A DNA stretch of 64,000 bases from Hyaloperonospora brassicae (lineage: Eukaryota; Oomycota; Peronosporomycetes; Peronosporales; Peronosporaceae), in the NCBI GenBank assembly GCA_947650285.1, contig CANTFL010000298.1, positions 92,909 through 156,908 of the forward strand, read 5' to 3'. Position 1 is the stretch's first letter. Every line of letters begins with the position of its first letter. The notes below the pieces were generated by a model, which made no database searches, was not told the DNA's origin, and worked only from the letters and a program-made list of their open reading frames with translations. Both the position numbers and the translations under genes were made by a program. Shown here piece after piece: positions 3,001 through 37,340 of this stretch.

Positions 3001-4723
3001 TCAGTTGGTGCGGATAGCTGCGATCACGAGATCAGCCGGGAGGATACGTCATGAACCTGAAGTGGTACAGGAGGAGATAGTACAGAGGATTAGGGTACAA
3101 CGAATTGTCCAAGCTCAAGATGAAGAGTGTTGGATTGTCAATCTCAAGAAGTATCTAAGTGGCGATGTATCAACCTTGGACGCGGGAGAGGTGAAGATGT
3201 GTGCAAAACTGGCGCCAGAATACGAGATCGATGAGAACGATCTGCTATTTTTCTGCCCCATGGCGAAAAGAGAGTCAGAAGATCGCGATGGTTTGATGCG
3301 GTTGGTGATCCCTGAGATGTTGCAACAGGATTTTTTGCATCACTATCATACGAGTCTGGAAGGAGGCCATCAGGGTATCGGTAGAACTTATCAGAGGATC
3401 AGATCGCGATTCCATTGGAGAGGACTATATCGGAGTGTGCAACGATATGTGGGCGAATGTACCGACTGTGAAACGGGAAAAGGAAGCCCGACGATTCATG
3501 GGAGATCCCCGGGCAACTTACACGCAACCTATCCATTTCAGATCATCGCAATGGATCATATACCGTCGTTGCCCAAGTCTATCAAGGGGAATACCGAACT
3601 GCTTATTTGGGTGGATCTCTTCTCGGGATATGTGATTGCAAAGGCTAGCTCATCACGAGCAGCACAAACAATAGCTGAGAATTACGAAGAATGTGTGTTT
3701 CGGCGTTTCGGAGCTAGCGAGGCTATCAGACACGATCGAGAACCGGGATTTATGTCCGATTTTTTCCGAGCCTTCAGTCGGATCGTAGGACAGAAACAGC
3801 GTGCTACCATGGCCTACAGGCCACAAGCAAATGGAACAGCCGAACGAATGGTGCAAACCTTGACGCATTCGCTCAAGATGTACGTGGCTGAAGTGGACCA
3901 ACGGGACTGGGATGAGTATGCTGAGCGACTCACATTTGCAATTAACACCGCACAAGATCGGATCCGGGGGGACACCCCATTCTATCTGATTCATGGGTGG
4001 GATCCACGATCGACGTTGGAAGCTACGTTATCAGTGGGGAACACGAGAACAAGAGATCGCGATCCGAAGCGGTGGAGATATAGTATCCAAAGACAATACC
4101 AGCGAGCTCGATCCGCAGTGAACGATCAACTACGAGCTGCGATCCAAGAGAGGGCAGATCGACATAATGAAGATTTGGAGCAACATGAGATCGAAGTGGG
4201 AACGCAAGTTTGGTTATACCTGGATCGAGTCAAAGAGGGATATGCGAAGAAGCTAGCGCATATGTGGCATGGTCCATTCCGAGTTGCGGACATTTGTGGA
4301 GATCACGCTGTGAAATTGGAGATCGCCGGAACTCCGTATCGGTTATTTCCGATTGTACATTTATCGAAGCTAAAAAAGGTAAAAACGTTCCCTGAACGGC
4401 CGAAGGATCAGCTGACGATAGACGAAGCAGAGCGCTTGGATTTTGATGAGGCTCTGCTGCCAGAAGATAGTTGGGAGAGTGAGCTTGAGGAAGGAGAGTA
4501 CGAAGTAGAAGAAATATTGGATGTGCGATCTGGTAGGAAAACCCGTTATGGGCGAGTACACCGACAGTTTCTGGTGAAGTGGAAGGCACATCCCGATCTA
4601 AGTTGGGTGGATGAGGCCGATCTGAGTTGTGGGGCGATCTTGCAGGAGTTTGAGCGGAACCGAGTGAGTCGAAACCGTTTCGAAGCGATGCAGTCTCACG
4701 AAGGCAAGTCGGACGAACCTTAA
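2..4723 (+). CDS. pol: Gypsy pol polyprotein (RT, dual RNase H, integrase, chromodomain), 5' partial
   Basis: The frame is open from base 2, so the first candidate start (GTG at 56) is only an artefact of the window edge. Numbering from base 56: reverse transcriptase about 320-600 with catalytic YIDD at 506-509; a first RNase H about 660-790 in which the usual catalytic Asp positions read Tyr670 (YAS for DAS) and Arg736 (TRH for TDH); a second RNase H about 820-945 with a full set D827, E868, D892, D942; integrase zinc finger (H..H, CTDC) about 1110-1150; integrase core D1167, D1227, E1263 with 35 residues between the last two (D35E); chromodomain about 1480-1545 ending near the TAA at 4721-4723. 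Function: copying element RNA to DNA and integrating it. The dual RNase H is known in oomycete and plant Gypsy elements. No internal stop or frameshift, so probably functional. Confidence 0.93.
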   Translation, partial: RRPAYGSKIQHITAKDQHVVIPVGESREVKVGIGGAKMKLWIARGPDWVPTVISGLGKTKYLQMTNISDHEIILPTHTILGLWTEGDMVPRTQGFVTVGSGKYKEWQTLAYEATTDRVNEPPKEQIGPLVDRPTYTTPKCIMKRQSDASKDIPPAISMITQQAGDDESQKTDVGVAREVMVNGAELARVDSDQEIGAQQATKGDRDTDPDWLRDRSSLSKAEPTDKLLNLDQPGETKEPKEEAMLKTEDAEIAVTPVYYHESGDLFAEDIEQHMAVLPEMSATTEEVTIEDIQIGDPNVPLTTDQQRLRLLIWKSRHLLMGKGNALPPAARGAICDIDVGGAAPIAQRVRPVAPKYREKLSDLIKGLLAAKIVQPSTSPWASPIVVIIKKNGVDIRLCIDYRRVNQLTRLMVYPMPLISDLLEDLDKALWYCSLDMASGFWVVEMTERAKLISAFVTPFGLFEWLRMPFGLKNAPQIYQRLVDNALYGYLKIGQRSTSEGPIDVFKDGEPETDRRSSILGRRSYIDDILIPATSWESLYAKVERLLEACDKWNLSISLTKSFWGCRKVDYLGHRVSVDGLEAQPKNLESLINIPFPSTLRAMQSFLGSLNYYRRFIEDFALYAAVLYELRESDFFEIGRSQLAAGDEWSTEGRWTEAKVAFTMLKAKIATAPMLKHFDPDRPPVIVVYASKWAVSAALIQEYDGVYHPVTFTSRTLKPNELNYGTVEKEVLALLRVLDVCYTTLASREITVLTRHSTLAWLMQSRGLNGRLGRWAALLSNWTMEVKKCERGEEEILGMLAASITPRDEIEEMLIAISPRKDCRLKISTPPPTVEADEELLVASFDGSARIKKKGGSYSAVIWRLPEWTIVAAESRYAHNLTVNEAEYNGLLLCFELLADLNRGRVILCGDSNLVIRQMRGEIDCKAPGLQLLRQKALVKLRSWPSHEFLHMKREWNQSADRLASTALQNEKGRIVVAEEDRQDLMTLNRLDELLKPKQDGQLVRIAAITRSAGRIRHEPEVVQEEIVQRIRVQRIVQAQDEECWIVNLKKYLSGDVSTLDAGEVKMCAKLAPEYEIDENDLLFFCPMAKRESEDRDGLMRLVIPEMLQQDFLHHYHTSLEGGHQGIGRTYQRIRSRFHWRGLYRSVQRYVGECTDCETGKGSPTIHGRSPGNLHATYPFQIIAMDHIPSLPKSIKGNTELLIWVDLFSGYVIAKASSSRAAQTIAENYEECVFRRFGASEAIRHDREPGFMSDFFRAFSRIVGQKQRATMAYRPQANGTAERMVQTLTHSLKMYVAEVDQRDWDEYAERLTFAINTAQDRIRGDTPFYLIHGWDPRSTLEATLSVGNTRTRDRDPKRWRYSIQRQYQRARSAVNDQLRAAIQERADRHNEDLEQHEIEVGTQVWLYLDRVKEGYAKKLAHMWHGPFRVADICGDHAVKLEIAGTPYRLFPIVHLSKLKKVKTFPERPKDQLTIDEAERLDFDEALLPEDSWESELEEGEYEVEEILDVRSGRKTRYGRVHRQFLVKWKAHPDLSWVDEADLSCGAILQEFERNRVSRNRFEAMQSHEGKSDEP

Positions 4724-4984: not shown

Positions 4985-7762
4985 CTAAGACGATGGAGCA
5001 GGCTTGAACTTGTCCTGTAGACGGGGAATCTGCGATCCGGGGTGATCCCAATAGGCGTTGCGGAACTGGTTGCGCCAAGGATCCTCTTGGTCGGCCATGT
5101 CCAACGCCTCTAGCAAGTCAGCTGGGTCGTTAGAGTGTCCTAACCCTGGATACCAAACTCGTTCTTCATGTGGGCGCGGATAGTGGAGGAAGAAGGGATC
5201 CAGCAAGATGTCGAGATCACAGTGGCCAGAGATCATGCCGTTGAGTATCTTCTTCAAGAAGTTCTTCCAACGTGCTCCAAAGCGAGATCGGCGCTGCTTT
5301 CGTTGACGCCAGAAAGTTTGCATAAACCGTTCGGATCGTCGCTGGGCCGGAGAGATCGGGAAAGCATGAGTAGATTCCCATAGAGCTTGCCGATGAGTGG
5401 ACTCAAGCTCCAGGTAATGATGACTCATGTCTCGATACCATCCAGTCATGGTGAACGATATCGGGTTGACGGGGACCACAATATTGTCCCAGGGGGCCGT
5501 AGCGTAAAGAGCCTGGATGTGCTGCCGCGAAATCAGCCCAGAGGCCCAAGTCCCCGTCGGAGGAGCTCGCCCATGACTGTGGAAGGGGAACAGAAAATTC
5601 CTGGGCTTGGAGTAGTGGTGAAACAGCAGTTCAATGGTCATGGTCCTCACGCAAACCATCGCGATCCGCGAAACTGACCAGGGAGCGATCTCGGAAGCTA
5701 CCCGTCGGGAAGGCGCCAGATAATTGGGAATCCACCGATCCCGTGGCTGCTGGAGTGGTGGAAGATGGTCGAAATCAACGGAAGAGATGACTCGGTTAGC
5801 CACTTGGCGCGTCGGAAGGGTGATGCTGTTTTCGCTATCGGACAAATGGCGATCCGAAAGCGCAGTAGACCCCGGAGGCGGACTAGCGGAGCCAGTCTCG
5901 CTGTGTGTTTCCCCTGTCGGCGACACCTCCATATCTTCCACGTCTCCATCATCTTGAATTTCAATTACGGGGGCAGCCGCGACCGGAGAGGATGGGTACG
6001 AAAGATAACGGGGTTCCGGAGCGTCTGGAGAGAGCGACCGCGACAGTGCTTGAGCTGATGCGGTAGCTGCGGAAGAAGCGGAAGCGACCTGGGCAGCCGG
6101 AGAGGAGTCTAAAGTCGAAGATCGGGCATCCGACTTAGGCTGACGACGAGCGGTCGATCTCGAGCGGGACAACACGGAACGGGTCAAATCTCCCGAGCTA
6201 GAGTCTGACTCGGTTGGCTCCCCACTTCCCGATCCAGTCCTAGAAGACGTGGACGAGGGCGGCGAAGAAGAAAAATTGGGTGAAGGCTTGGGCGGGGCCG
6301 ATCTGGGGAGTTTCTTGGAAGATATTGAGGGATTCAACGACAATAGCCGGGAGGCCACACGGGTGGCAGAAGAATCTCTGAATCGTGACCGTGGTCGAAC
6401 CCGCTGACGCTTGGTAGGCGGGCCAGACGATCTCGATCTGGACCTACGGGCAAGCGATCTCGATCTCTGGGTGGCGGAAACAGGTGGCGATCCGGCCGGA
6501 GTAGCACTCTTGGGCGTCGGTCGAATGGTCAGTGCAGACGACCGGGACCCGAGTATAGCACTGTTCAGGGTGTCGAGGAGGGCACGGTGTTCTGCTATGG
6601 CCCGATCCCGATCGTGCTCCGCCACCTGCAGCTGGTCGTGCACCGTGAGGTGTTCCGCAAGCTGACGACGGAGGTTGGCGTTTTCCATCCGCGAAAGTGC
6701 CAACTGACCCTCCAGAGGAGTCAAGCCATCCACTTGTTGCACGAGATCGCTAATTGAAGCCAGTCCCTCTGCGATCTCCGCTTGAGACCGATCCAATTCC
6801 TCCTTCAAGTGCAAAACATCTATGTGAAGGAAAGACCTGTCGGTGGTCAACTGGTCACGCTGCTGTCGGAGAGAATTGATTTCGGCTTGGAGCGAAGTGA
6901 TTTGAGCCCTCAAAGCGTTCACCTGTCGTTCCAAGCTGCCTCGATCCTCATCGTTGGCACGTAGCAAAGCGCGTAGCCGGAGAATCTGCGCCGATTGGTC
7001 TCGATGTGTCCGCAGAGCTCGTTTACAATCGCTCAGAGAATGTACTGCGTCGACGTAGCGGCCTTGCATCAAATCATATCGACGCTGGACAAAAGAGACG
7101 AAAGGTGCGGCCGATCTGTACAGAGAATCAATCTCGTCTCGCAAGCGATCCCCCCGGGCGACCGCATCTCGGTATGACTGCTGAAGCGCATGAATTGTAT
7201 CGGTTTGGCTGCAGAAGGTAGCCTCTCGATCCCACAAATAAGAGATCGTAGCCAACGTAAGACGAACGTCGTCGGCAGAAACTCGCGGAACGAAGCCGGT
7301 GACGCCCGCAATTGGAGCAGACCCTGTACGAGACTCACTAGGGGCCAGAATGTCGGAGCTGAACGCACCCAGGGTCGCCGGAGGTGCAGGAAGTGAGGAC
7401 GGCTCAGAGGGACGATCTGGCGATCCCGTGACGATCGATGGCGACCCGACCGAACTGGAATCACTTGGAGACTCGTGTCGATCTGGAACAATTGGAGCAT
7501 ACATCCCGCGGTCCGGCGACCCAGACGGCAAGTTGCGGGCTGGGGACGAAGGTCTGGTCGGCTGTCGATCTGGCGATCTCGGGGCGATCGGTGGAGATCC
7601 GGCTGGACCTAGATGGCTTGGAGACGCATGTTGATCTGGGACGATTGGAGCATACCTCCCGCGATCCGGCGATCCAGACGACGGGTCGCGATCCGGAGAC
7701 AGAAACACGGTGGAGCCTTCTGACGAGATCGGCGAGGTGGGGAGATGCGCTGGAGAGGCCAT
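4985..7762 (-). CDS. Antisense ORF of family A Gypsy: coiled-coil, basic, unknown protein
   Basis: A 925-codon frame lies on the strand opposite to pol and converges on it. The frame opens at a GTG (7864) inside the 3' LTR after an in-frame stop; the first ATG is at 7762, which I take as the start. From that Met: Ser/Pro-rich disordered region with two 50-residue repeats containing SPDRG and YAPIVPD; long heptad-like coiled coil about 205-405; a strongly basic Arg/Ser stretch about 432-462 containing PTKRQRVRPRSR, nuclear-signal-like; Ser-rich region; hydrophobic-acidic motif VIEIQDDGDVEDMEV about 596-610; and a C-terminal domain about 680-925 rich in Trp, His and Arg. I do not recognise the family. 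An open frame of this length cannot be chance, so expression from the 3' LTR on the antisense strand is likely. A role in chromatin, or in controlling sense expression like other antisense retroelement proteins, is inference. Confidence 0.75.
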   Translation of the reverse strand: MASPAHLPTSPISSEGSTVFLSPDRDPSSGSPDRGRYAPIVPDQHASPSHLGPAGSPPIAPRSPDRQPTRPSSPARNLPSGSPDRGMYAPIVPDRHESPSDSSSVGSPSIVTGSPDRPSEPSSLPAPPATLGAFSSDILAPSESRTGSAPIAGVTGFVPRVSADDVRLTLATISYLWDREATFCSQTDTIHALQQSYRDAVARGDRLRDEIDSLYRSAAPFVSFVQRRYDLMQGRYVDAVHSLSDCKRALRTHRDQSAQILRLRALLRANDEDRGSLERQVNALRAQITSLQAEINSLRQQRDQLTTDRSFLHIDVLHLKEELDRSQAEIAEGLASISDLVQQVDGLTPLEGQLALSRMENANLRRQLAEHLTVHDQLQVAEHDRDRAIAEHRALLDTLNSAILGSRSSALTIRPTPKSATPAGSPPVSATQRSRSLARRSRSRSSGPPTKRQRVRPRSRFRDSSATRVASRLLSLNPSISSKKLPRSAPPKPSPNFSSSPPSSTSSRTGSGSGEPTESDSSSGDLTRSVLSRSRSTARRQPKSDARSSTLDSSPAAQVASASSAATASAQALSRSLSPDAPEPRYLSYPSSPVAAAPVIEIQDDGDVEDMEVSPTGETHSETGSASPPPGSTALSDRHLSDSENSITLPTRQVANRVISSVDFDHLPPLQQPRDRWIPNYLAPSRRVASEIAPWSVSRIAMVCVRTMTIELLFHHYSKPRNFLFPFHSHGRAPPTGTWASGLISRQHIQALYATAPWDNIVVPVNPISFTMTGWYRDMSHHYLELESTHRQALWESTHAFPISPAQRRSERFMQTFWRQRKQRRSRFGARWKNFLKKILNGMISGHCDLDILLDPFFLHYPRPHEERVWYPGLGHSNDPADLLEALDMADQEDPWRNQFRNAYWDHPGSQIPRLQDKFKPAPSS
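7391..7690. repeat. Tandem duplication, 2 x 150 bp, inside antisense ORF
   Basis: Two consecutive 150-bp units (about 7391-7540 and 7541-7690) match clearly: the string gattggagcatac recurs 150 bp apart, as do the flanking GATC-rich stretches. The period is a multiple of three, so it encodes the 50-residue repeat in the antisense protein. Confidence 0.75.
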
Positions 7763-7839
7763 AAGACGGACTTGAGTGGTTGGAGCGAAGTTGATGAGTG
7801 ACTGCACTGAGGTCAATTGCTGTACAATGGACTTCAGTA

Positions 7840-7849
7840 CAGGGGGCGG
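7840..7849 (+). other. Polypurine tract of family A
   Basis: The run cagggggcgg sits one base before the 3' LTR start at 7851, where the plus-strand DNA primer of LTR retrotransposons is made. Confidence 0.7.
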
Positions 7850-7850
7850 T

Positions 7851-9633
7851 TGTGGTGAAGTCACTCATCAAATTTTGTACGAGGATCGGTGGCTACACAT
7901 TTGGGACGCCACTCACTGGTGGAAAAAGAGGCCATGGGACTTGGCGATCCAATAAGGAAACAGGATCGGCGATCCGATCCAACTGTCGTCAGAATGATGG
8001 GTATGGAACGATCTGAGACGGGGTGATCCGGGACAAGACGACAGTTAGGACGATTTCCATGGAGTGATCTGGGACAAGGATCTGAGATCGGGCGATGTGA
8101 TGTGACTATGTGACGAAGGTGTAACATCCTGCAGACCGGTGACACTCTCTACGGGTCTCCCAAAGGGAGTACTGATTTAGGTTAATTATGGACCGATCTG
8201 GAAGTGGGGTTGTTTGTGGGGGTCCGTGGGACCGTTGTGAGAATTGTGGATGGTCCCATTGTGCGGATAAACCGTTGAGTATAGTATCGGAGTATGCACA
8301 ATGAACGGAAAAGGCATATAGGGCCGGATCGCACTGTGTCGATCCTCAACGATCTCGAATTGGACATCAGATCGGTCATGTTCCCTGCTGGTTATGGATA
8401 TATCGATGATGGAGCTATTGTATGATGATGTACATGCTTGTTGGAGATCCATGAGTGATGTCCCAAAAGTTCAGACCGAAAGAGCCAGTGGAAGCCGGTC
8501 GAATTGACGTCGCAAAATGGATTTAGACACGTTCCACATCTTGGATACTATTTTGGACTTTTCGGTACCAAAATTGGGTATTTGGTACCATATTTGGAAT
8601 TTGGTCCTTTTTTGGTGTCTAGGTACGATATCGGGAGTATTGGCGCTATCTTTGGAGTACAGGTCACGAAATTTCGACACGTGTTCAAGGGGGCGGTCAA
8701 GCTTAAAGGTGATATCGACTTGGAGAGTGACCTACGGTTGGGAATAGGCTTAATGATAGGTCGGATATTAATTTGGTTGGTTAATAAACAGACTTGAACT
8801 CTACTTCTTCTGCTCACGACGCACGTTCTCCTCCCCTCTTCTCCGGGCAAGATTGATTTGGCTTCCCCGGCGGGTCAAGGCACGCGTGTTACAGGGACAC
8901 AGAAGACCGATCTTGGATTGTTGGCCAAGATCGAGAAGAGCGATCTCGGGATATCTGGCCCGGATCGATCAAGTACTCACACTCAACTCAACTGCTAGGG
9001 TAGCAGCCACACAACAAAGGAAAAGGAAAAGGATTTTGGACACAAGATCGCGAGACGGCTCAAGTGGTCAGAAGATCTGGACAAGGCGTTCAAGACAAGA
9101 CCGAGCAAGATCGAAGCGATCTACTGGACATATCGGCGTGTTTCATTTTGGCGAAACCAAGAACCGATCTGTCCATATTGCGCACTTCCGGCAAGATCGG
9201 CCGATCCCGAGACCAGATCGGACCGATCCCAACGCAAGATCGACGCAAGACTATTATTTGCTGAGTGAAGATTTCCGCACAGCGAAGACCCCGATCCCGA
9301 AGACAAATCGAGATCGGTGTGATTCAAGATCGAGATCGCGACATCTCCAAATAGAGATCGCCGCGACTCAAGATCAGGATCGCAGAACCCCCGTTCGTGG
9401 TGTGAAGATTTCCGCACCGGAAGCGAACGCTCAACCCCAAACCCTCAGCGAGATCGACATCTCCCAAGGCCATTACGAAGAGCTCAAGCCAGCCCAACCG
9501 ACGGGTACACAAGGTGAGCACAAGGTTATACAGCAAGGCACGGATCGGAGTACCCCCTCCGTGAGTCGGCAAGTCTGGGCAAGTGGAAGATCGACACTCA
9601 CTAAAGTAATTTTGTGAGATCGACTTCACCACA
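7851..9633 (+). repeat. 3' LTR of family A (1783 bp)
   Basis: Starts TGTGGTGAAGTC and ends GACTTCACCACA, a perfect 12-bp terminal inverted repeat around the required TG..CA. It follows a polypurine tract. A diverged full-length relative is the solo LTR at 32304-34252, and the U5 part is recognisable in LTR relics ending or starting at 24091, 42061, 51327, 57050 and 59983. A conserved U5 core near 9500 reads ccgacgggtacacaaggt. The 8850-9400 part is dense in GATC. Expected to hold promoter and polyadenylation signals for the sense transcript and perhaps an antisense promoter. Confidence 0.88.
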
Positions 9634-9638
9634 TTCTT

Positions 9639-10609
9639 CCCACTAGGTGGATCGACTCGATTGTCGCTATGGGTTTGAATTGAAGCCGCATATTTGCAGA
9701 TCTCATAACAATAACACCTTGCTAAACAGCCAGCTGTTGTTGCTAATTAAGCGGATTTGTGATGAGGGCATCGTCAAAATCGGTGTTTGACGCTGCGCCA
9801 ACGGGTCGTTGGCTTCGCCCCGTTTTTCGAATGTATTTGGTGCCGTATGAGTCTTTGCCTCATACACAGATGTGTTAGACAGTGTCACTTCTTCATGGGG
9901 GGACACTGTTATCGCTACCACAATCGACCTCCTCTTCGTGATTGAGCTAAGAGAAGATTGTCGGAGACTCGAGAGGCAGCGATACCATGGTGTTTGGTGC
10001 TTTGAGCAACCGCGAGGTCAAGCGCGCACAATCCGACCACTTCGAGGAAAGAATTCGATTAACGTTTTGTGGTACCGCCAGTCTGGTGGGGGTAGTTGTA
10101 ACGGGGTTACACGTTGGCTAGTAGCCGACAATTTGTATAATTTACGACAGGGATGGTATCCCGTTTAAATGACATTCGAACAACAGGTCAGTTGTTGAGG
10201 GATGACGTGTGTCAGCCACCAAAAAACGAGATCTTGTGAGAGGTATTGATTAAAAACATTAGTGTCTAGATCAAGTACATTTAGTCTGATGTGTTCTTTT
10301 AGATAACAACAAGTAAAGTTCGGTTTTCCTGTGACCTGTATCATACACGTGTTTTTCCAATGCGTCTTAGATCGTCAAGAGTTCAGCAAACGATTTGTTA
10401 AGGCAGCTACTCTTGAGCACTCTGTGGTGTAATTCCTTGAATCGTTTGCCACCCTAAAACATGAATTGTAAGCTCTCGATCTTGTTGACTATCCGAGTCG
10501 GGTTCTTTGAACTAACGTTTGTTCACTGAGCGTTATGTCTTCCTCTAACTGAAGGAGCTGCGTAGCTCCGCTACAAAATCAGCAACAATTGGGGTCGTGT
10601 CCTAGGGGG
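9639..10609. other. Non-coding; hairpin-rich retroelement relic plus unidentified sequence
   Basis: About 9700-10150 carries closely spaced inverted repeats of the kind that fill family B (for example gtatgag/ctcatac near 9846-9866) and a tgtaacggggttaca string near 10095, like a family B LTR terminus, so it is probably a fragment of a related element. No convincing coding frame. About 10200-10600 may be the far, unrecognisable end of the RPAP1 relic. Confidence 0.35.
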
Positions 10610-12503
10610 TTGTGCTAAATGCGAGGCCTTCCACCCACATGTCACCAAACAGTGCCACAGCTTCTTCGTCATTTTTATCAGTGGACATTTTTTCGAGAGC
10701 TAGGACACCTTTCGTACTGTGAATAACACCGTTCGCTATGAGTGCAGAAGCTACGCTGCGTTATCCCTGACAAAGGCCTCGCACCAGCTGTAAGACCTTC
10801 AACGACAGCTGCAGCGACCGTGCCTTACCCTCTTGGAAAGTCTACACTTCTCCGTTTTCAACGCCCCGCTGCTATAGCTATCACAACAGTCAGGCGTTTG
10901 GGCTGAGTTCGTGAGCTGCACCCGTAGAATGGCGAGCTACCGTGGTCAGAATCTCCAGCATTTTCTCTGCGGCGTTTGGCTCGGCAGCTCAATCCTCTCG
11001 AGAATGTAGCATAGCCGCGTGCCTAGATCCATGTTTAAAAGAGCTTGGACCGATCCAGCGCTGCGATATCCTCGTCGCTGATGCTCGATCCATCATCAGT
11101 CTCGCTTGTGTCAATGTACACCACCTCTTTAGCGTCGTATGAGTCACAGCCCTCGCTGTTCGTTTGAGCGCCATGTCCGTTGCGGTGGAGGTGAACACTT
11201 GGCGGCAGTACAACGGTGCCATGCTTGAGCTCAGGATACAAGCGCTTGTCAAGAAGACAATCGTCAGTTTCCACAGGAACGACAAACGCATGAGGGGCAG
11301 ACACAGCAGTACCTAGCGCCGTATAGTTCTGGTCGTCCAGCACAATTCGAAGCGTCATTGCCATGTCACGAGGGAATGTTCGTGGTACAAGAGGACGAGA
11401 AGCGTTTGCCAGCAACTGTCGTCGATGTAAAATTTTGGCCACGACTTGGAGCGCCATGGTGCGCTGGCTCGCCACAGTGCTACGTGCGAGGTGCAACAGC
11501 TCCGGTACAGTGTACCCCGCAGCTTCTGGGTCGTCGCCGTGGTGGAACAAACCGGAATGCATGGACAACTCGGCGTCCGTCGCTTCGAGCAGGTTCCCGT
11601 CCAAGTCAAAGCGCTCGAGCGTCGCGTCGCGTCTGCATAGCAACGCGCTTGATGCTGTCCACTCCGTCTTCTGTCTTTGACCGTCCCGCTCTGGCGCTGC
11701 GTCCATTCGAGCTTCGCACACTCTTCCAGTGGCAAGAGCTCGACTTGCGCCTGGAGCTCCTCGTCCGTCTTGACTGCTGCCAGCTGTTGCATCATGTGCG
11801 TCGTGCGCATCTCCCGTGTCATGCCTTCCTCCCGATCGTCTCCATCTTTCCCATCTCCTCCATCTTTTCCATCTGCTGCTTCTCCTTTTTCTTCTCCTGT
11901 CAACACACGCGCGCGCTCGGTCGAGTGAATGCTCGCTCTGACTTTCACAGGTTGGCGTCGACTCCGCAATTTGGCAATCAGTTGCGCGTCCAGCGTCTGC
12001 ACGCGCTCTTGCTGCGCTTCCTGTACCTCCTGCGCGCTCATGTCCCGCACGCGCGCGCGGCTCATCGCGTCGATTGCGCGCATTTCCACCGTGTCAGACG
12101 TCTTTTTGTCCGCATGCTGCTGCGCTGCGCACCGTCGTCGCCCAAAACGAGAGGTTTTCGTACGACCACGACGATCGTCCTTCTTGTCCCCTAGCCCCTG
12201 CCGTCGAGCGGCACTTGGAAACTCCAGTGGGTTTTTTGGATTTGACCCACGGAGCACCAACCGCTCGTTAAGACCCACCAATACCGTCGCGTGGCGCTCC
12301 ACGACATTCTTCAGCACTTGACCAGCGCCGTGTCCAGGCGCGAGATCCACGAGCTCTGGATGCGGGTGCCCGTTTGATGCCCGCTCGGGAGTAGTGCCAC
12401 ACCGAGTGACAGTTGCCGACGGACGCTTTCGCTGCTGGAGGAAGAGCTCTTGTTCGCGCCCGAGCTGCGCCAACTCGGCGTTCATGTCGATGCTCGATGT
12501 CAT
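10610..12503 (-). pseudogene. RPAP1: RPAP1 (RNA polymerase II-associated protein 1) pseudogene, truncated and frameshifted
   Basis: Reading leftwards from ATG 12503, the product begins MTSSIDMNAELAQL. It shows the conserved N-terminal RPAP1 block near 11950-12070 (IDAMSRARVRDMSAQEVQEA and onward) and the C-terminal-type block near 11450-11620 (ERFDLDGNLLEATDAELS, then HHGDDPEAAGYTVPELLHLA). The frame changes between these blocks at about 11645-11690. The second frame runs to a stop at 11035, after which further matching segments appear in shifting frames (EKMLEILTTVARHS near 10940-10985; LQLSLKVLQLVRGLCQ near 10770-10830; then EEAVALFGDMWVEGLA near 10630). Intact RPAP1 is usually over 1000 residues and helps assemble and import RNA polymerase II. 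This copy has several breaks, so it is a pseudogene unless another copy exists elsewhere. An alternative start at 12617 would pass through a tandem repeat and is less likely. Confidence 0.82.
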
Positions 12504-12530
12504 TGTCGGTCGCTCGCGTTGGCGTCGTCG

Positions 12531-12577
12531 CGTAATGCCGGTGGTGGTCGTCGCGTAATGCCGGTGGTGGTCGTCGT
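12531..12577. repeat. 2 x 23-bp tandem repeat upstream of RPAP1 relic
   Basis: The unit cgtcgcgtaatgccggtggt plus three bases occurs twice in direct succession, just upstream of the chosen RPAP1 start; probably 5' leader sequence. Confidence 0.7.
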
Positions 12578-12799
12578 AACTCGTATGTGACGTGCGCCAA
12601 ACGCGGATGGGTTGCAAAAGGCGGAGGCGAAGTTTACGTGTGGTACGTGAGTTTAGGCCTTGTTTTGGGAAGAACCCTCATACCTGCAGCAGTACGAACC
12701 GCTTGTAGTTACTGTATACACTACAGGAACTGGAGCTGCTGTACCGTAGAGATGCTGTAACAGCGTTGTCGCTACTGAGGTATATTCATTCAGTAAGTG

Positions 12800-12804
12800 T
12801 TGCG
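12800..12804. other. Target-site duplication TTGCG (left)
   Basis: The same 5 bases follow the 3' LTR at 20782-20786. A 5-bp duplication is usual for Ty3/Gypsy integrase. Confidence 0.92.
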
Positions 12805-13194
12805 TGTAACGGGGCAGCCCGTTACATAATATTGTCACTTAAGGAAAGTGACAATAAAGAATATAAAGATGGATATTCTTTAAACAATATCACCGAAGCG
12901 GTGATATTGAAGGGTCGACCAGAAGGGTCTGTTCATTGGTTGATATCGTGATGATATCAACCCACCAATCGCCGCAAGACGCGCGCAATGAGTGGTGACG
13001 AGACGTCACCATACATGCAGTTATATTAGTATAATTGAATTAAGTCAAACGAAGAGACAGTAGTTTAAAGACTTAATTTATTAATATAACAGTTCTACTT
13101 TTACCCTACCTACGCTTCCTCGCTCGCCACGTGTACGTCCGTCGGGGCACCCAAATCCCTTGCGTTAAGTTACGCAAGGGTGTGCCCCGTTACA
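12805..13194 (+). repeat. 5' LTR of family B (390 bp)
   Basis: Begins tgtaacggggcagcccgtta and ends gtgccccgttaca. It matches 20392-20781 at every base I compared. It contains at least five long hairpins, for example attgtcactt/aagtgacaat at 12831-12855 and cccttgcgt/acgcaaggg near its 3' end. Confidence 0.95.
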
Positions 13195-13196
13195 CC

Positions 13197-13205
13197 TGGT
13201 AGCAC
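13197..13205 (+). other. Primer-binding site, family B
   Basis: TGGTAGCAC begins 2 nt after the 5' LTR and starts with TGG, complementary to the CCA end of a tRNA. The tRNA was not identified. Confidence 0.6.
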
Positions 13206-13238
13206 TTTGTAGTCCTTCCAAGGACCACATCATCCAAC

Positions 13239-14393
13239 ATGAACATGTTGGATGAAGAAGACACCTTTCACGCCACGCGTGAAGGGTTTACCCATTTGAG
13301 TGACATCGAATGGGGTGCGGTAGAACGAATGAGTTCTACCGTAGGCGAACTCGTCGTCAGCACCATGTTGGAGTCTCTAGACAGAGACCAACAACATGCT
13401 GCTATCGCCAAGTTCATTCACAATGAACTTGCTCTCGAGAGGGAGAAAGTAGCCTTGCTTCACCAGCAAGGCTCTCAACAGGCCGAGCAGTTGAGAGAAC
13501 TCGGTGCTCAACAGACGGAGCTGTTGAGACAGCAGCAATTCCATGCTGCTGTGGGCGGGACGGCGCATGCGCGTCGTCCCGAAGTGATGAAAGTCGACAT
13601 CTCCAAGTACAGTGGAGTCCCGGAGGACTCCCTGTTACTATGGTTTGTCGAACTCGACAGAGCCCTAAGGGCTCGTCGCGTCGAAGATGAGCAAATGAAA
13701 CTCACATTTGCTCAGACCCACTTGGCAGGGCGTGCCAAAACTTGGTCCCTGGGACTCGAGAGTAGCGACCCAAATGTGTTTAGGTCGCTAGATGACTTCA
13801 AGTCCCGGCTCAGACAAACGTTTGAGCCGCCACGTGCTGAGTTCAGGGCTCGTTCAGAGCTCCTGAAACTCAAGCAGGGTAAGCGTGATGTGCACGCTTA
13901 CGCACAACATATACGACTCCTTGCGAGTAGTATAACTGCAAACCCAGTTCATGAACACACGTTGATTACGGTGTTCATGCAAGGGCTCGCAGAAGGGCCC
14001 GTCAGGAGCCACCTGTTCCGCCTTGAGCTGAATACGCTTGAAGAAGCGATATCAGCCGCGGAACAGGAAGACTTTAGCATGAGACAGGCTCATGCTAGCT
14101 CAAACTCTTACCGTCCACCGAGACGACAAGAGATCGGAGGTCCAGAACCAATGGACCTCTGTTATGTTGAGAGCGAGAGACCTCGCTCTACAAGCAACAA
14201 GCGATTGCAGAGGTGCAATCGCTGTCAGAAGTTAGGGCACTACGCATACGAGTGTAGTGCTCCGCGCCCAGTACCAAACAGTACTGAGCGAAATGGACGA
14301 CCATTCGCCAGAAAGGGCAATGGGCGTGGGTCCAGCGCTGTTGCGAAGCCGCAACAGCGAGACGGGCCATCAAAAAATGGTCGGGGTCAGTAG
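13239..14393 (+). CDS. gag: Gag (capsid and nucleocapsid) of family B
   Basis: A 384-residue protein starting at the ATG 44 nt after the LTR. Glu/Gln-rich helical segment about 60-105; retrotransposon capsid region about 120-300 (LLLWFVELDRALRAR, then AQTHLAGRAKTW, then FEPPRAEFRARSELLKLKQG) of the Ty1/Ty3 Gag type; one CCHC zinc knuckle CNRCQKLGHYAYEC with C326, C329, H334, C339; basic, Gly-rich tail. It packages element RNA into virus-like particles. The stop TAG (14391-14393) lies inside the hairpin of the frameshift signal, so pol is expected as a gag-pol fusion. Confidence 0.93.
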   Translation: MNMLDEEDTFHATREGFTHLSDIEWGAVERMSSTVGELVVSTMLESLDRDQQHAAIAKFIHNELALEREKVALLHQQGSQQAEQLRELGAQQTELLRQQQFHAAVGGTAHARRPEVMKVDISKYSGVPEDSLLLWFVELDRALRARRVEDEQMKLTFAQTHLAGRAKTWSLGLESSDPNVFRSLDDFKSRLRQTFEPPRAEFRARSELLKLKQGKRDVHAYAQHIRLLASSITANPVHEHTLITVFMQGLAEGPVRSHLFRLELNTLEEAISAAEQEDFSMRQAHASSNSYRPPRRQEIGGPEPMDLCYVESERPRSTSNKRLQRCNRCQKLGHYAYECSAPRPVPNSTERNGRPFARKGNGRGSSAVAKPQQRDGPSKNGRGQ

Positions 14394-14412
14394 GGGCGGA
14401 GCGCCCTACTGA
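14372..14412 (+). promoter_or_regulatory. -1 ribosomal frameshift signal at gag-pol junction
   Basis: Slippery heptamer A AAA AAT (14372-14378, in gag frame), 8-nt spacer (14379-14386), then a perfect 9-bp hairpin: tcagtaggg (14387-14395), 8-nt loop, ccctactga (14404-14412). A -1 shift here enters the pol frame, which is open across the junction and has no ATG before the protease. The same heptamer, spacer length and stem are kept in the decayed copy at 30917-30957, with changes only in the loop and spacer. Confidence 0.85.
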
Positions 14413-17400
14413 TCCAGCAACCTCAAGAGAATTTGCAAACCTCTTGACGAAAGTTGCTCCAGATACACAATCATTGTGTGTCTCTGCACCTGGTGATGAT
14501 GTTTCGCTCATCACCTTGAAGTTGGAAGCGACAAATGACTTGTCGCTTCGTGCCCTAGTAGACTGTGGGGCGTCGAACAACTTTGTTCGTCGCCAGTCAC
14601 TAGAGGGTCGTAGGCTCAAGTTCGTTGAGCGCGACATTCCCCTCACAAGGATGACGGTGCGCCTTGCAACAGGCGCATCGATAACCGTTGAGAAACGTGT
14701 AGTAGGAATCCACTACACGTTAGAGGGCGAGCAGTACGATGATGATTTCATCGTACTAGATCTGGATGACAAATTTGATGTCATCCTGGGATTACCTTGG
14801 CTCAGAAAATACGAGCCAAGGGTGAGCTGGCAGCATCGATCCGTGAAGATGCCTGCTGCTTGTTCATCAGATGGCCATCTGATGAACATCTTGGAGCGTC
14901 CACAAGCGTGTGGATGTTCTGCGAGTGAGTGCGATGGCCTCACTTGCGGTACGGTCGTTAGCACGACTGCACAAGGTCACAGTGTAGTTGATCACTACAC
15001 TGTGGAGCAAGCTCCCGGCGGCTGTACAGAAGTACAGGCTGCGCCGAAGGTCCACCACTCGAATAAGTCGAGTGGACCGGGACATGGATGCATGCCTAGC
15101 GGGCAGCATCTTAGAAGAAATAAATCTGTTGCCCCCAAGGGGCAACATGAAAATCCTAGGTCGACTGGAGAGTCGACCGTAGAGGATCGGTTCCTGACTG
15201 TGGTTGCACAGCCACAGTCGGAAGACGTCGAGGGAATAAGTCCCCACGTACTTGAGGAAGGAGTTCCTCAAGAGTTGCTTGCTGAGGGATCAGGCCCTCA
15301 GCAGCCTGTGGAAGCAAGATCCCAGGAAGAAACCGAGACGTTGAACGTCTTGGTTAATGACGGATCAAGCGTAGGCGCTTATACGCTTGATCTGATTGTG
15401 CCTCCGAAGTTGACTTCGGAGATAACTCAGTTGCCAACGCTAGAACCGAAACGGTTCTTGCGTGATCTGCGTAGTGGCAAAGTCAAGCAGATCTGCGTAC
15501 TCGTCACAGAGGACGAGTATGTGACCGACATTCGGTCGGCAACAGTATTTGCTGAGAACGAACGGGTTCTCAGCAGCTCATCGATGGACGAAAGTGTCCT
15601 CGATGAGAAGACTCGGATTGAGCGATACGCGTCCCAATCCTGGGAGTCACTTCAGGCAAATCCTTTGTATAAGGATTTGATCGAATTCAGGGATGTGTTC
15701 CCTGAATCCGTACCTTGCGAGTTGCCTAAGGACAAAGGCACTCGACACGAGATCGAGCTCAAACCGGGCTCGAAATACTGTGTCATGAAGCAGTGGCCAC
15801 TGCCTCGTGAACAAGTGATAGCGATCGACAAGTTCTTTGCCGATCGCTTAGCAGCGGGCCATGTGAGGGAATCAACATCCCCTCACAGCTCTCCGACCTT
15901 CTGTGTGCGAAAGGCCACAGGAGGGTGGCGGATAGTGCACGCATTCAACAAGTTGAATGCTGCAACGGTACCGGCTCAGACGCCGATACCGAGGAAGGAC
16001 GTAATCATAGATGGTATGTCAAAGAGTACCATCTTTTCGTCCATGGATCTGATGGATGGATTCTATCAGATCCTGATGCGTGAACGGGACGTCCCGTTCA
16101 CAGCAGTGAGTACCCCCAGCGGGATGCTGTGGGAGTGGCTAGTAATGCCACAGGGGCTGAGTAATGCCCCTGCAACATTCAACAGATGTGTAACAAATCT
16201 GTTGAGACCGGTGCGAGACTTCGCACCGAGTTACTTCGACGATGTGTTCGTCCATAGCCGGGCTATGGACGGGAAGACGGACGTTGAAGTTCACAGAACT
16301 CACGTTCGTCAGGTTCTTCAACTTATGCGCAAGCATAAGTTGTACGCCAACCTCAAGAAGTGTATATTCGCGGCTAGCGAAATACCACTTCTTGGGTGCA
16401 TCGTGGGAAAACACGGCGTACGCCCTGATCCCGAAAAGATCAAGGCGATCACCGACTGGCCAGTGCCAGTCGATGTCAAGGGACTAAGGAAGTTCCTTGG
16501 TCTTGCGGCGTACTTGCACAAGTACTCGCGCAACTACGCCGAGATGACTGTTCATCTTTCTTGCTTGCTCAAGAAAAATGTCAAGTGGTCATGGAACGCT
16601 GAGTGTCAGCGTTCCTTTGAAGGTATCAAGCAAAGCTTGATGCAATCGCCGATCTTGGCGATTGCAGATCAGGACAGACCATTTCATGTGGTCTGTGACG
16701 CCAGCGATTTCGCAATCGGCTGTGCGTTAATGCAGTTTGATGCAGATGGCGCGGAGCGCGTCATCTGTTATCAATCGCGTCAGCTGCAAGCAGCTGAGCG
16801 TAATTACCCAGTGCATGACAAGGAACTCCTTGCCATGAAATACGCACTGGCTAAATTTCGCGTCTATCTCTTGGGAGATAGACCGTTTGTTGTCTACACG
16901 GACCATGCGTCATTACGCACGGCCGTAAACAGCCCACACCTCTCGCAAAGAATGGCGAGGTGGCTGTCTTTCTTCGCGGAGTATAACTTCTCCGTGGAGT
17001 ATAAACCGGGACGACTCAATGTCGTCGCGGATGCTCTTTCGCGCCGGCCCGATTTCGAGCCGGACGCGCAATCCAACAGTGAGGACAAGCCCACTGTTGC
17101 GACACTGTCAGTCAGTGTCCCGTCGTCAAGTTTACTTGACGACGTACGAAAGGCATACGCGGAAGATAAGGATCTTCTGCGATTGATGGATCATCTGGTG
17201 AATCCATCCAGTAAATCCATGAGGGATTTACCGGCTTTGTACCGATCCTCATCGGATCGGTATAGTACACGCAACGGATTGCTGTACTATACAGCTGTTG
17301 CCGACGACACGCCTCGTGTCGTCGTACCCGCTCATCATGATTTGCGATTGCGCATCATGTATGAGTGTCACGATGCCCCAACAAGCGGCCATCGTGGTAG

Positions 17401-18069
17401 AGAAAAGACTTACCTCACGGTAAGTCGCGACTTTTACTGGCCCCGCCAGTATCAGTTTGTTCGCAAGTACATCCGTGCTTGCGAAGTATGTCAACGGGTG
17501 AAGCCTAGTCCTTCATCCCGTGCGCCATTGCAGCCTCTGCCTGTTCCGACAGAGTGCTGGCAGTCCGTTTCAATGGACTTCGTCTTCGGGTTTCCCGAAG
17601 ACGCTCACAAGAATAATGGTATTCTTGTGTTTGTGGACCGATTCAGCAAGATGGTCCATCTTGCTGCTGTCCCTGAGTCAATCAAGGCTCAAGGTTGTGC
17701 TCGTGTCTTTCTAGACACGGTCTTTAGACTCCACGGGTTACCCCGTGAACTCGTATCCGACCGTGACCCTCGGTTCACGGCGGAATTTTGGAAAACCGTG
17801 TTCCGTACTCTCGGAACACGATTGAAGATGTCCACTTCTGACCATCCAGAAACAGATGGTCAGACGGAACGTGCGAACCGTGTCCTCGAAGAGATTCTTC
17901 GAGGATATGTCCACTCGTTTCCGAGTTGGAGCGAATTCCTACCCATGGTGGAATTCGCCATCAATAATTCGGTGCATGCTTCAACACAGCACACACCGTT
18001 TTACGTGAATGGCCTACGCCATCCACGTGTGCCCACCCTTCTAGAGTGTGACTCTTGGATAAGGGGGGA
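14393..18069 (+). CDS. pol: Pol of family B: protease, RT, RNase H, integrase
   Basis: The frame is open from the gag stop; there is no early ATG, which fits synthesis by -1 frameshift. Numbering from TTG 14444: aspartic protease with DCGAS at 40-44 and DVILGLPWL about 113-121; a linker of about 250 residues; reverse transcriptase about 430-690 with YFDD at 597-600; RNase H about 740-860 with DAS, KELLA and TDH catalytic motifs all present (unlike family A); integrase zinc finger (H..H, CEVC) about 965-1015; integrase core D1045, D1106, E1142 (35 residues between the last two). At the G-run 18062-18067 the frame is lost: one more G would continue into the frame-1 segment at 18070-18834. The apparent downstream extension to 18307 in this frame is low-complexity junk. 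Confidence 0.93.
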
Positions 18070-18834
18070 GGGACTCGCTCGAGCGAAAACCGTTTTGGCT
18101 CTTGCTCATCACGTGTCGACGCAAACGTCGTCACGTATGATGCCGATGTCGATCAAGTCGACATCGATGAAGAAGATCATCTCAATAATAGCGGCGACGC
18201 TATTACTGACTCGGATGATGATGACGATGCTGGTATATTCAGCATCGCCAACGATTATGCCAGCGAGGAAGAAGACAACCTCGCTGAAGAAGAGAGCAAT
18301 CTCTTAGCAGTGCGCACGCAGCGCACTGCTAAACAAAACAAAGAGTCAGCAGAGAACTTCCTGCTGACTCGAGAAGCGGTAGTCCGTTTCGTTCAGGACT
18401 CCATCGCAAATGCGGTGGACCGTCAGAAACGGAACGCAGACAAGAATGGAAGAGCAAATGTTCTTTCATTTAAGGTTAATGACCTAGTACTACTGTCAAC
18501 GGTAAACCTACCTGGACATGCAGTCACTAGTGTCGGCAGTAGTAAACTACTGCCGAAATACATTGGGCCATTTCGAGTGTTGCATCGCAAGGGCAATGCA
18601 TACACACTCGAATTGCCACGTAGGATGCGCACGCATCCTACGTTTTACGTGGGGAGGCTTAGGTCGTACTGTCAGTACGAGCCTTCTTCTTCCGATGAAG
18701 ATAGCCCCCACGTTCAAGAACATCCATCAAGTTCTTGCGTTCGCGCTCCAGACGATCCGTCTGGTCGCGCAGATATGATACCTCGGTATTCAACCGAGTT
18801 ATCTCTCCGCGAGCTGTCGCCAGCTCGCCGAAAA
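18070..18834 (+). CDS. Pol C-terminal part (acidic linker and integrase C-terminal domain), shifted frame
   Basis: Continues pol after the G-run break, in the -1 frame. It begins with an acidic stretch (VDQVDIDEEDH, then DSDDDDDAG). It then has the integrase C-terminal SH3-like region near 18460-18670 (NDLVLLSTVNLP, SSKLLPKYIGPFRVLHRKG, THPTFYVGRLR), typical of Gypsy pol just before the chromodomain. The decayed copy at 36150-36480 reads through the G-run without the shift, which supports a missing base here. The frame is lost again near 18829-18836. Confidence 0.85.
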
Positions 18835-20262
18835 GGAGCGGACATCCCGCTCGACCTGAAGCTGCGCCGTGGCATAATCGGCGCGATCCCTCGCCCGATC
18901 AGCCTCGTGATCCTTGCGGTTCTTCCGCACGGTGTCGGTCAAAGCATAGCGTCGGTCGCGCTCGTGCTTCAAGTCATCGCGCAATTCATCGATTGCGCGA
19001 TCCATCTCGTAAGGGTCGAGATGGTGGGCCTGGGGTTCTGGAGGAGGTCTTTCCTCCTCCACCACATCCTTTGGTGGATGCTCACGGTGATCAACGCTTT
19101 CTAGTGGAGCGTATCTTGAATCACCGTGACGATTCAGGATCAAGGACGAGCTACCTCGTCCAGTGGCGGGGGTATCCACCCTCTTGGAACAGCTGGGAGC
19201 CCCGCTCTCAGCTGTTGATGGATGTTGAAGGTCTCGTCCACCAATATGACGAGACCCATCCGATGAGTCCTGTGGCCCATCGGTAAACACGCGCCCTAGG
19301 CGCTTGTAGACGGATTGCAAGTTTGCAATCGCGTCACGCATCTCCTCCGAGAGATGTGCCCTTCCCCAGGGCGAACTTAGGGAGTACACATCCCTATGTG
19401 CACGCTGCGAGTTGTCAACACAACTCGCACAAGGGTCTCCCCATGTGAGGCAAGGAATGCCTGCCTCACTCGATAAACAATGCAACCGGTACCTAGCACC
19501 GGTTGGCGTTCGCCGTTCGAACCTGAGGCGTGTTGCCTCAAGTTTCTTGAGCCACCCCTCTCGTCCAAAATTCTTGACGTTTTGGACGAACGCGTTCCAC
19601 GCAGCCAAAAGCGATGTTTTGTCACGCTTTTGGTTGCTATTGTACCATCGATGTCTAAGGAAGACATCGAGATAAAAGTCTTCTTCAGCGCGAAAGTTCT
19701 TCGCGCTGGGACTCAAGCCGTGAAGCTCGGTTGCATCGAATAAGGGTATTCGATGGTGTTGGCCTGTCTCGTGAGACAGGCTATTGATGAGCCGTTCGGG
19801 CAAACGCCACGGCTTCAGCTCATCACGCTTCACAGTGGTACCTTTGTTGGTACCACGGCTGTCAGTATGACGATGGGTTGCACCATCGTCAAGTCGCTCG
19901 TGCGAAGGAGCACGAGCTGATTGCGGTGATGAGCAAACATACTCATCATCAGATTCGTCATCACTGCCGAACAGACTGTGTTGCAACTCACGAGTCCGTT
20001 CGTTCGGCAGTGGCCTTGGCGAATACTGAGGCGTCGCCGGTGAGCGAGACGCCTCTGGAGCATTGCCCGAGTCAGACACGTCTGACTCGCCAGAGTAGAT
20101 GACCTCCACATCGGGGTCATCGTACGCACGCGGCGTGATACCGCGTGCACCTGCAGCACCTGTTGCTGCAGGCGAAGAAGGGGCGGCAGACGACGAAGCG
20201 TCTGCCGCAGAGGCTTGCACAGCACCAGGCTGTGTGGGTCTTGAGTCACCTCGCATAGACAT
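18799..20262 (-). CDS. Antisense ORF of family B Gypsy (coiled-coil protein, unknown), C-terminus frameshifted
   Basis: A 487-codon frame from ATG 20262 converges on pol and overlaps its chromodomain region. Layout: Ala/Ser-rich N-terminus; hydrophobic-acidic motif [17 protein letters not shown] about 48-64; acidic DDESDDEYV; a conserved-looking domain about 150-260 ([49 protein letters not shown]); then a charged coiled coil about 418-479. The stop at 18799 is premature: in the neighbouring antisense frame the heptads continue to a TAA at 18659-18661. The decayed copy (36667-37089) reads straight through this point with one extra base. The original gene was therefore about 18659-20262. Function unknown; the domain is not one I recognise. 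It is probably transcribed from the 3' LTR, whose edge is 130 bp from the start. Confidence 0.75.
18835..19286 (+). CDS. Pol chromodomain segment of family B, shifted frame
   Basis: After a second apparent one-base loss the pol frame continues through a basic Pro-rich linker to a chromodomain at about 19088-19262: [20 protein letters not shown], then [15 protein letters not shown], then DETHP, ending TGA-side at 19286. Chromodomains of this type steer Gypsy integration toward particular chromatin marks. The whole segment is also coding, on the other strand, for the antisense protein. Confidence 0.88.
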
Positions 20263-20380
20263 GTTAGCTATGCGAGGTCAAGCGGAAAGTGAGTGGAACG
20301 GACCAAACAAGTACTCCCTGTCCCAATGGTGGCCAACGGGTGGCCTCCATATTTCGATAGTCACACGGTGACTATCAGTT

Positions 20381-20390
20381 AAGGGGGGTG
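20381..20390 (+). other. Polypurine tract of family B
   Basis: aaggggggtg directly precedes the 3' LTR (one base between), the normal place of the plus-strand primer. Confidence 0.8.
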
Positions 20391-20391
20391 A

Positions 20392-20781
20392 TGTAACGGG
20401 GCAGCCCGTTACATAATATTGTCACTTAAGGAAAGTGACAATAAAGAATATAAAGATGGATATTCTTTAAACAATATCACCGAAGCGGTGATATTGAAGG
20501 GTCGACCAGAAGGGTCTGTTCATTGGTTGATATCGTGATGATATCAACCCACCAATCGCCGCAAGACGCGCGCAATGAGTGGTGACGAGACGTCACCATA
20601 CATGCAGTTATATTAGTATAATTGAATTAAGTCAAACGAAGAGACAGTAGTTTAAAGACTTAATTTATTAATATAACAGTTCTACTTTTACCCTACCTAC
20701 GCTTCCTCGCTCGCCACGTGTACGTCCGTCGGGGCACCCAAATCCCTTGCGTTAAGTTACGCAAGGGTGTGCCCCGTTACA
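20392..20781 (+). repeat. 3' LTR of family B (390 bp)
   Basis: Identical on reading to the 5' LTR (12805-13194), followed by TTGCG at 20782-20786, the right target duplication. Confidence 0.95.
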
Positions 20782-30930: not shown

Positions 30931-30957
30931 GTCAGTAGGGGTGGAGCGCCCTACTGA
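30917..30957 (+). promoter_or_regulatory. Relic -1 frameshift signal, fully conserved
   Basis: aaaaaat at 30917-30923, 8-nt spacer, tcagtaggg (30932-30940), 8-nt loop, ccctactga (30949-30957). The heptamer and stem are unchanged compared with 14372-14412 although the surrounding copy is riddled with mutations. Confidence 0.8.
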
Positions 30958-36480: not shown

Positions 36481-37340
36481 AGCAGTGGTCCTTTTCGTAC
36501 AGGTTTCCATTGCTTACGCGGTGGACCGTCCGAAACAGAACTCTGACAAAAATCGGAGGGCAAATATACATTCATATGTTAATGATGACTTAAACCTACA
36601 ATCTACGGTGAACTTACCTAGACACGTAGTGACAATGTGGGCAGCAGTAAACTACTGTCCATGTACTTAAACCCCTTTCGTGTGCTGTGCCGACAAGGCA
36701 ACGCATACACGATCATACTGCCACATAGGATGCGTACAAATTCTACGTTTACGTGGCTTGTCTCCGCCCGTACTGTCAGTACTAGATTTCTTCCGACGAT
36801 GAAGCCAACTCCCACGTTCAAGAACCTCCGTCATTCTCTTTCGTTTGCGCTCCAGACGATCAGTCAGGATGCGTAATGAAGAGATCTTTCCGTTCATACA
36901 ATAGATTTCCATGCGTGCAGTCCCCAGCTCCTTAACGAGGGAGCGGATATCGCACTTGACCTGCAGTTGCGCGACCGCGTACTCATCACGGTCATTCGCA
37001 CGATCAGCTTGAAAATCCTTGCGGTGCTGCCGCACAGTGTCGGTCGGATCATAAAGCCTGTCGCGCTTGTGCTCCAAATCTTCGAGCAATTCAACAATTG
37101 CGTGATCTATCTCCTTCAGGTCGTGATGGTGAGCAGAATTACTTGGAGAAGGTTTTCATTTCTCCACCGAATCCTTTGATTGACTCCCACGGTGGTCAAC
37201 GCTTCCTGGTGTAGCGTATGTTGAACGACCATGACGATTCAGGATGAAGCACTTTTTACCTTGTCTCGTGGCAGGGTATCCACCCTCGTAGGTGAGCGGG
37301 AAGCCCCGCTCTCAGCTGATGGTGGATGTGTCCTGTCTCG
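36481..37340 (+). pseudogene. Decayed pol C-terminus and chromodomain, old family B copy
   Basis: Integrase C-terminal region at 36540-36760, then sense stops near 36936, and a broken chromodomain at about 37190-37330 (HGGQRFLV, YLVSWQG) matching 19080-19200. Confidence 0.75.
36667..37089 (-). pseudogene. Antisense coiled-coil ORF remnant, old family B copy
   Basis: A 140-codon open frame matches the C-terminal coiled coil of the 18799-20262 antisense protein ([17 protein letters not shown] compared with EHKRDRLYDPTDTVRQH). It then continues past the point where that ORF is truncated (KELGTARMEIYCMN, then LTDRLERKRKRMTEVLERG). It stays open where the overlapping sense frame has stops. Confidence 0.7.

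Follow-up and report, generated by a model that had tools for sequence, protein, structure and literature searches.

Long antisense genes lie between pol and the 3' long terminal repeat in two Gypsy retrotransposon families of the oomycete Hyaloperonospora brassicae

The window analyzed here is a 64,000-nt stretch of the Hyaloperonospora brassicae genome (assembly GCA_947650285.1, contig CANTFL010000298.1, positions 92,909 to 156,908), in which two Gypsy retrotransposons lie in tandem order, a member of a family we call A followed by a member of family B. Each carries a long gene between pol and its 3' long terminal repeat (LTR) on the strand opposite to gag-pol, as a sequence-only reading of the window had proposed. 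These antisense genes are coding, are under purifying selection, run head-on to pol, and begin near the 3' LTR, at a distance of 88 nt in family A and 129 nt in family B (Table 1). They occupy the position of the open reading frames (ORFs) termed aORF-3R (antisense to gag-pol, between pol and the 3' LTR), and in both families the protein is present and conserved across many copies. Convergence on pol, also claimed by the sequence-only reading, is simple in family A, where a 261-nt gap separates the two genes; in family B the 3' part of the antisense gene in addition overlaps the C-terminus of pol, including the chromodomain. We think it reasonably likely that these are accessory genes of the elements, with proteins that act on the element's behalf and not on the host's.

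The 925-codon frame reported earlier for family A proved to be uninterrupted. A search of the genome (100.6 Mb in 898 contigs), in which copies were ranked by score and their counts are lower bounds, returned 63 matches to the A protein, pieces included, from the best 49 scored of 2418 candidates. In a set of 30 copies, made up of the window copy and 29 fetched loci (L010-L038), the antisense frame was stop-free over more than 2400 nt (more than 800 codons) in 16, and each of the other five frames at these loci held 14-38 stops. Because those frames are stop-filled and the antisense frame is under purifying selection, the A frame exceeds what chance would leave open. The ratio of nonsynonymous to synonymous substitution rates (dN/dS) between the window copy and 13 intact copies of other clades was 0.21-0.29, at a dS of 0.27-0.36. 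Comparison with two intact copies of its own clade gave 0.29 and 0.57, the latter at a dS of 0.01, and comparison with stop-carrying copies gave 0.26-0.87. Four of the five other frames had ratios of 1.03-1.33; the fifth shares third codon positions with the antisense frame and accordingly had 0.31-0.33, yet it was as stop-filled as the rest. Of the 29 pol-end comparisons at the same loci, the 11 that were stop-free over at least 390 codons gave 0.02-0.05, and the full set gave 0.02-0.57. The A antisense protein is clearly constrained, though less than pol.

Constraint was also measured by region, in two between-clade pairs with 95% intervals from a bootstrap over codons. The whole A protein had dN/dS values of 0.23 (0.18-0.30) and 0.25 (0.20-0.32). 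Values were 0.06 and 0.07 for the C-terminal domain (interval 0.03-0.12), 0.11 and 0.08 for coiled-coil residues 291-400 (0.03-0.26), 0.43 and 0.38 for the central disordered region (0.27-0.63), and 0.30 and 0.37 for the N-terminal part; coiled-coil residues 201-300 gave 0.30-0.40 in the window comparisons. This pattern reads as that of a folded protein with flexible linkers. From the N-terminus, the predicted order is disorder, coiled coil, disorder containing a stretch like a SUMO-interacting motif (SIM), and the C-terminal domain. The SIM-like pattern was found in 15 of 17 scored A sequences against 4.1 expected from shuffles, and a K[KR]x[KR] basic stretch precedes the domain in 14 of the 17. 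The AlphaFold2 model of the domain had a predicted local distance difference test score (pLDDT) of 83 and a predicted template modeling score (pTM) of 0.82. No Pfam family matched the domain alone at E ≤ 0.1; the full-length protein matched 34 families, with neither bZIP nor TRP28 among the 25 listed. As a separate observation, the N-terminal part of the A gene contains, at 7413-7680, an imperfect direct repeat of two units of about 115 bp that are 81% identical.

In database searches, the named relatives that matched the A protein at 78-80% belong to Peronospora. For the domain alone, 18 of 457 database candidates matched, at 32-96%, with named relatives in Phytophthora fragariaefolia, P. megakarya, P. 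ramorum, P. palmivora and P. rubi, in Nothophytophthora and in Peronospora; those in Phytophthora and Nothophytophthora stood at 33-48%, and the Peronospora match at 96% over the domain. Seven columns are invariant in an alignment of 19 domain sequences. A second Gypsy family of the same genome (L050, LTR not mapped), with a pol 73% identical to that of A, has a convergent 887-codon antisense gene whose domain is 49% identical to the A domain. Since relatives occur in Phytophthora, Nothophytophthora and Peronospora and the same layout recurs in L050, the A antisense gene is old. The relatives in Peronospora and Phytophthora are annotated as ordinary uncharacterized proteins, which would fit captured host genes or host-domesticated proteins that sit in the elements by chance. 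We regard that origin as very improbable, given that a pol-end match was present in the fetched flank of 29 of 29 A loci, that each family has tens of copies, and that the layout recurs in a second Gypsy family.

Family B copies were taken as the best 88 scored of 3502 candidates, window copy included, with the short form of the gene found in the window as the query. The matched stretch was free of stops in 83 of them. The sequence-only reading had placed a gene of roughly 530 codons at about 18659-20262; this fits a long form, typically of 539 codons, seen in 51 of the 88 (match ending at codon 476/477), but the window copy has 487 codons and ends as do 37 of the 88 (both counts by hand). Relatives carrying a long coiled coil and a basic tail suggest that the short form, found in copies nearly identical to one another, is derived from the long form. 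The predicted order of the B protein is a SIM-like motif close to the N-terminus (some B subfamilies have an altered version), then the domain, disorder, and coiled coil, with a basic tail added in the long form; this tail ends nine B sequences that reach the C-terminus. The Pfam matches of the B protein included no bZIP, and the Pfam rows listed for the scanned A and B proteins and their relatives held no TRP28 or gag match. Database searches found 16 relatives of the B protein at 32-84%, of which the three with named species are from Peronospora matthiolae.

Outside the pol overlap, B codons 1-323 gave dN/dS values of 0.36, 0.39, and 0.29 against the relatives L040, L041, and L042, and the B domain 0.18, 0.23, and 0.32, with dS between the window copy and L042 saturated. 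The control frames gave 0.85-1.41, and the frame with coinciding third positions 0.39-0.47. B codons 1-323 are under purifying selection, weaker than that on the A gene, so the dN/dS check advocated by the sequence-only reading came out in favor of both genes. Compared over 18701-20262, the B gene is a mosaic whose segments move between lineages irrespective of pol. L042 matches the window copy at 97% identity over 19101-19200 and at most 72% from 19201 onward, with a pol protein 94.5% identical; the identity of L040 and L041 to the window copy is lowest at 18701-19100 (0.45-0.64) and mostly 0.8-0.9 on both sides.

Several measurements are less favorable to constrained coding function. Fourteen of the 30 family A copies carry 1-10 in-frame stops, B antisense dN/dS was 0.64 between L040 and L041 and 0.44-0.69 for the close copies L043, L045, and L046 (B copies at 97-99% identity being non-independent), and B codons 324-440 gave 0.70-0.78 against L040-L042 and 0.6-0.9 over all pairs. 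These last codons overlap pol, so selection on them is inseparable from that on pol. The sequence-only reading had named frequent breakage in otherwise intact elements as a result that would count against it. Stops are indeed frequent in the A copies, but they accompany broken pol ends: the pol end was stop-free in 13 of 15 copies with an intact A antisense gene versus 6 of 14 with a broken one (p = 0.02), as expected if both genes serve the same element. The frames might instead be open by chance, or as a by-product of sense composition or, in B, of hairpin symmetry, and the hairpins described below do make the B strands locally alike. However, no sense ORF of at least 150 codons overlaps the A gene or B codons 1-323, the antisense dN/dS lies at 0.2-0.4, protein relatives stand at 32-54%, and element A lacks a hairpin excess. 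This explanation is largely refuted, and we give it a negligible chance of being correct.

Profile comparison of the A and B antisense proteins found only the coiled coil in common, in agreement with the earlier statement that they share no obvious sequence. Their common ingredients are disorder, a SIM-like motif, basic stretches, and a coiled coil; the shared layout described earlier holds for these ingredients but not for their order, which differs between the two. Two unrelated genes hold the same place in two element families. As A and B show no common ancestry beyond the coiled coil, the genes would have been fixed separately or very long ago in the two lineages, and the independent or ancient fixation proposed from the window gains support from this and from the spread of A-domain relatives over three oomycete genera and L050.

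In the mechanism we propose, families A and B would have gained their antisense genes separately, and each gene would be transcribed from a promoter in or beside the 3' LTR. Matches to the oomycete INR+FPR promoter pattern with at most three mismatches numbered 46 against 42.3 expected, which is chance level. The proteins would enter the nucleus by way of their K[KR]x[KR]-type basic stretches and oligomerize through the coiled coil, and the SIM-like motifs together with each protein's own conserved domain may dock on chromatin or silencing factors. Once docked, they could adjust the element's own transcription or its handling of complementary DNA (cDNA), by analogy with the plant Retand and Grande proteins and with HBZ of human T-cell leukemia virus type 1 (HTLV-1). 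An alternative that we consider unlikely is that the proteins act chiefly against host silencing, for example through SUMO-modified silencing factors, and not on the element's own promoter. The SIM-like motifs of both unrelated proteins lie in flexible acidic or serine-rich stretches, and the A domain and coiled-coil residues 291-400 are strongly constrained, all of which would suit such a role; the motif is short and is altered in some B subfamilies, and no target is known. Alternatively, the antisense proteins could help to build or package the particle, as products of a third gene resembling env or gag on the other strand. Their position is that of env in retroviruses, they contain coiled coils and low-complexity regions, and no regulatory domain was matched. 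We find this quite improbable, as the opposite strand would demand a separate transcript, the K[KR]x[KR] stretches would suit a nuclear location, and the Pfam rows listed held no gag match, although one relative (P0030) matched a retroviral GP41 coiled-coil model below the cut-off.

Known antisense genes give partial parallels to element-serving proteins of this kind. HBZ carries a coiled-coil leucine zipper. In the passages of PMC11963269 and PMC7264820 that concern it, HBZ is a nuclear regulator with a promoter in the 3' LTR. Its likeness to the A and B genes, by description alone, lies in an antisense gene at the element's 3' side; the A and B proteins are far longer, with no bZIP among the Pfam rows listed. 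For the antisense ORFs of the plant Retand lineage (TRP28; Grande gene 23, RIRE2, Retand), a nuclear or DNA-binding role is proposed in passages of the same two papers, and that of Grande is described as having a nuclear protein and its own promoter (PMC7264820). The Retand lineage is described as non-chromovirus and its hosts are plants, whereas A pol and B carry chromodomains, the A and B hosts are oomycetes, and the B antisense gene overlaps pol. TRP28 (PF04195) had no match in the genome at E ≤ 1 and none past the cut-off in 14 control genomes, a search with no positive control. A and B are therefore not assigned to the TRP28 family, given this result and the chromodomains in both elements. 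A precedent outside plants, likened by position rather than protein sequence, is the fungal element Boty of Botrytis cinerea, for which a passage of PMC7264820 gives an antisense ORF in the same position and on the same strand, between pol and the 3' LTR. The literature so far discusses antisense accessory genes in plant LTR elements, in at least one fungal element, and in a few retroviruses, and among titles and abstract openings of the open literature we found no description of antisense ORFs in oomycete LTR elements. With two unrelated antisense genes in one oomycete genome, and selection on them measured, one can ask by comparison why LTR elements retain a gene on the opposite strand, using several independent cases and proteins that are open to testing and lack a recognized fold.

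The body of family B is further distinguished by a carpet of short hairpins, defined here as perfect stems of at least 7 bp with loops of 3-12 nt. Up to 33 occur in 2-kb windows of B, versus about 1 in dinucleotide shuffles, and the numbers exceed the means of synonymous-codon shuffles (30 each) in gag (19 versus 1.3), pol (57 versus 2.7), and the antisense codons (20 versus 1.1). Element A shows no excess over such shuffles (0 versus 1.5 and 2 versus 2.4). In B pol, 45 of the 58 stems of at least 7 bp form a separate 8-10 bp class, and few are longer. The gag-pol hairpins avoid the phase that pairs third with third codon positions (17/89, p = 0.005); this stems from gag and the main pol frame, the pol end being opposite (5/9), and the phases in the antisense gene (10/5/5) are uninformative. 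Where both partners of a pair had changed, pairing was kept in 28 of 37 cases in L042, 16 of 24 in L041, and 16 of 22 in L040 (83-86% DNA identity), against 0.31, 0.23, and 0.28 in a slid-partner control; the three are non-independent relatives. Stem sites also change less than other sites.

Hairpin centers are common to close relatives of B but not to those at about 56-62% pol identity. Of the latter, L053 has 7.5 hairpins per kb, L055 4.0, and L054 1.0, differences that imply gain or loss of the carpet inside a single lineage. Other hand-picked reverse transcriptase (RT) loci (L001-L008, L052, L056-L059) have 0-1.1 hairpins per kb and family A copies 0.3-1.4. G.T and A.C mismatches are equally common in B stems, so pairing is not tuned to wobble in the sense RNA; either the arms copy each other through template switching, or selection sees both strands. 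It is possible, if doubtful, that the whole body of B, sense and antisense genes alike, is maintained in the form of closely packed 8-10 bp hairpins with identical folds on either strand. As positions turn over, copying from arm to arm in reverse transcription, selection on both strands, or the two together would renew the carpet. Sense and antisense transcripts, or the cDNA, would then share one self-folding armor, and an element transcribed in both directions could thereby keep sense-antisense duplexes, and with them silencing, in check. The matches listed in the open literature (titles and abstract openings) included no hairpin-carpeted retrotransposon. If such an arrangement is real, it would be a nucleic-acid organization not described for LTR elements. 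A separate question raised by the carpet is what produces or requires perfect hairpins at a density of about 16 per kb through coding sequence.

Table 1. Coordinates of the antisense genes and other features of elements A and B in the window
Feature	Coordinates	Strand	Basis
Family A antisense gene, 925 codons + stop	4985..7762	-	open frame, purifying selection, homologues
A conserved C-terminal domain, residues 655-925	4988..5800	-	dN/dS 0.06-0.07; alignment; AlphaFold2
A SIM-like motif VIEIQDDGD, residues 599-607	5942..5968	-	SIM-like pattern
A predicted coiled coil, about residues 191-400	6563..7192	-	coiled-coil matches; constraint measured in 291-400
Family B antisense gene, 487 codons (short form)	18799..20262	-	ORF, copies, dN/dS
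B conserved domain, residues 145-324	19291..19830	-	alignment; dN/dS 0.18-0.32 vs L040-L042; weak AlphaFold2 model
B SIM-like motif VEVIYSGESD, residues 52-61	20080..20109	-	alignment, pattern
Hairpin carpet, whole family B	12805..20781	.	130 perfect hairpins without overlap, covering 38% of bases
Family A pol (RT, RNase H, integrase, chromodomain)	56..4723	+	Pfam matches and ORF list
Family A 3' LTR, 1783 bp	7851..9633	+	LTR comparison
Family A 5' LTR	L039:3028-4809, just beyond window edge		LTR comparison
Family B 5' LTR	12805..13194	+	100% identical to 3' LTR
Family B gag	13239..14393	+	Retrotrans_gag, zinc knuckle
Family B pol main frame (protease, RT, RNase H, integrase)	14444..18307	+	Pfam matches
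Family B pol C-terminus, two further frames (SH3-like; chromodomain ~19101-19253)	18055..19286	+	window copy
Family B 3' LTR	20392..20781	+	100% identical to 5' LTR

Element A has the domain order of a chromovirus-type Gypsy element between its LTRs (RT, RNase H, integrase, chromodomain). Its LTR pair is 99.55% identical, with a target duplication TTCT, and its gag is located just beyond the window, in L039. Element B is complete at 12805-20781, with LTRs of 390 bp and a target duplication TTGCG. It too has the chromovirus-type domain order, with the pol end of the window copy in other frames: the 3' end of pol is spread over three frames, with the chromodomain in the last. Since its LTRs are identical despite this, the window copy may have been mobilized in trans. 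An older B-like remnant at 29681-37639 contains pieces of gag, pol, and the antisense gene (the latter within 36937-37639) and has a reduced hairpin excess.

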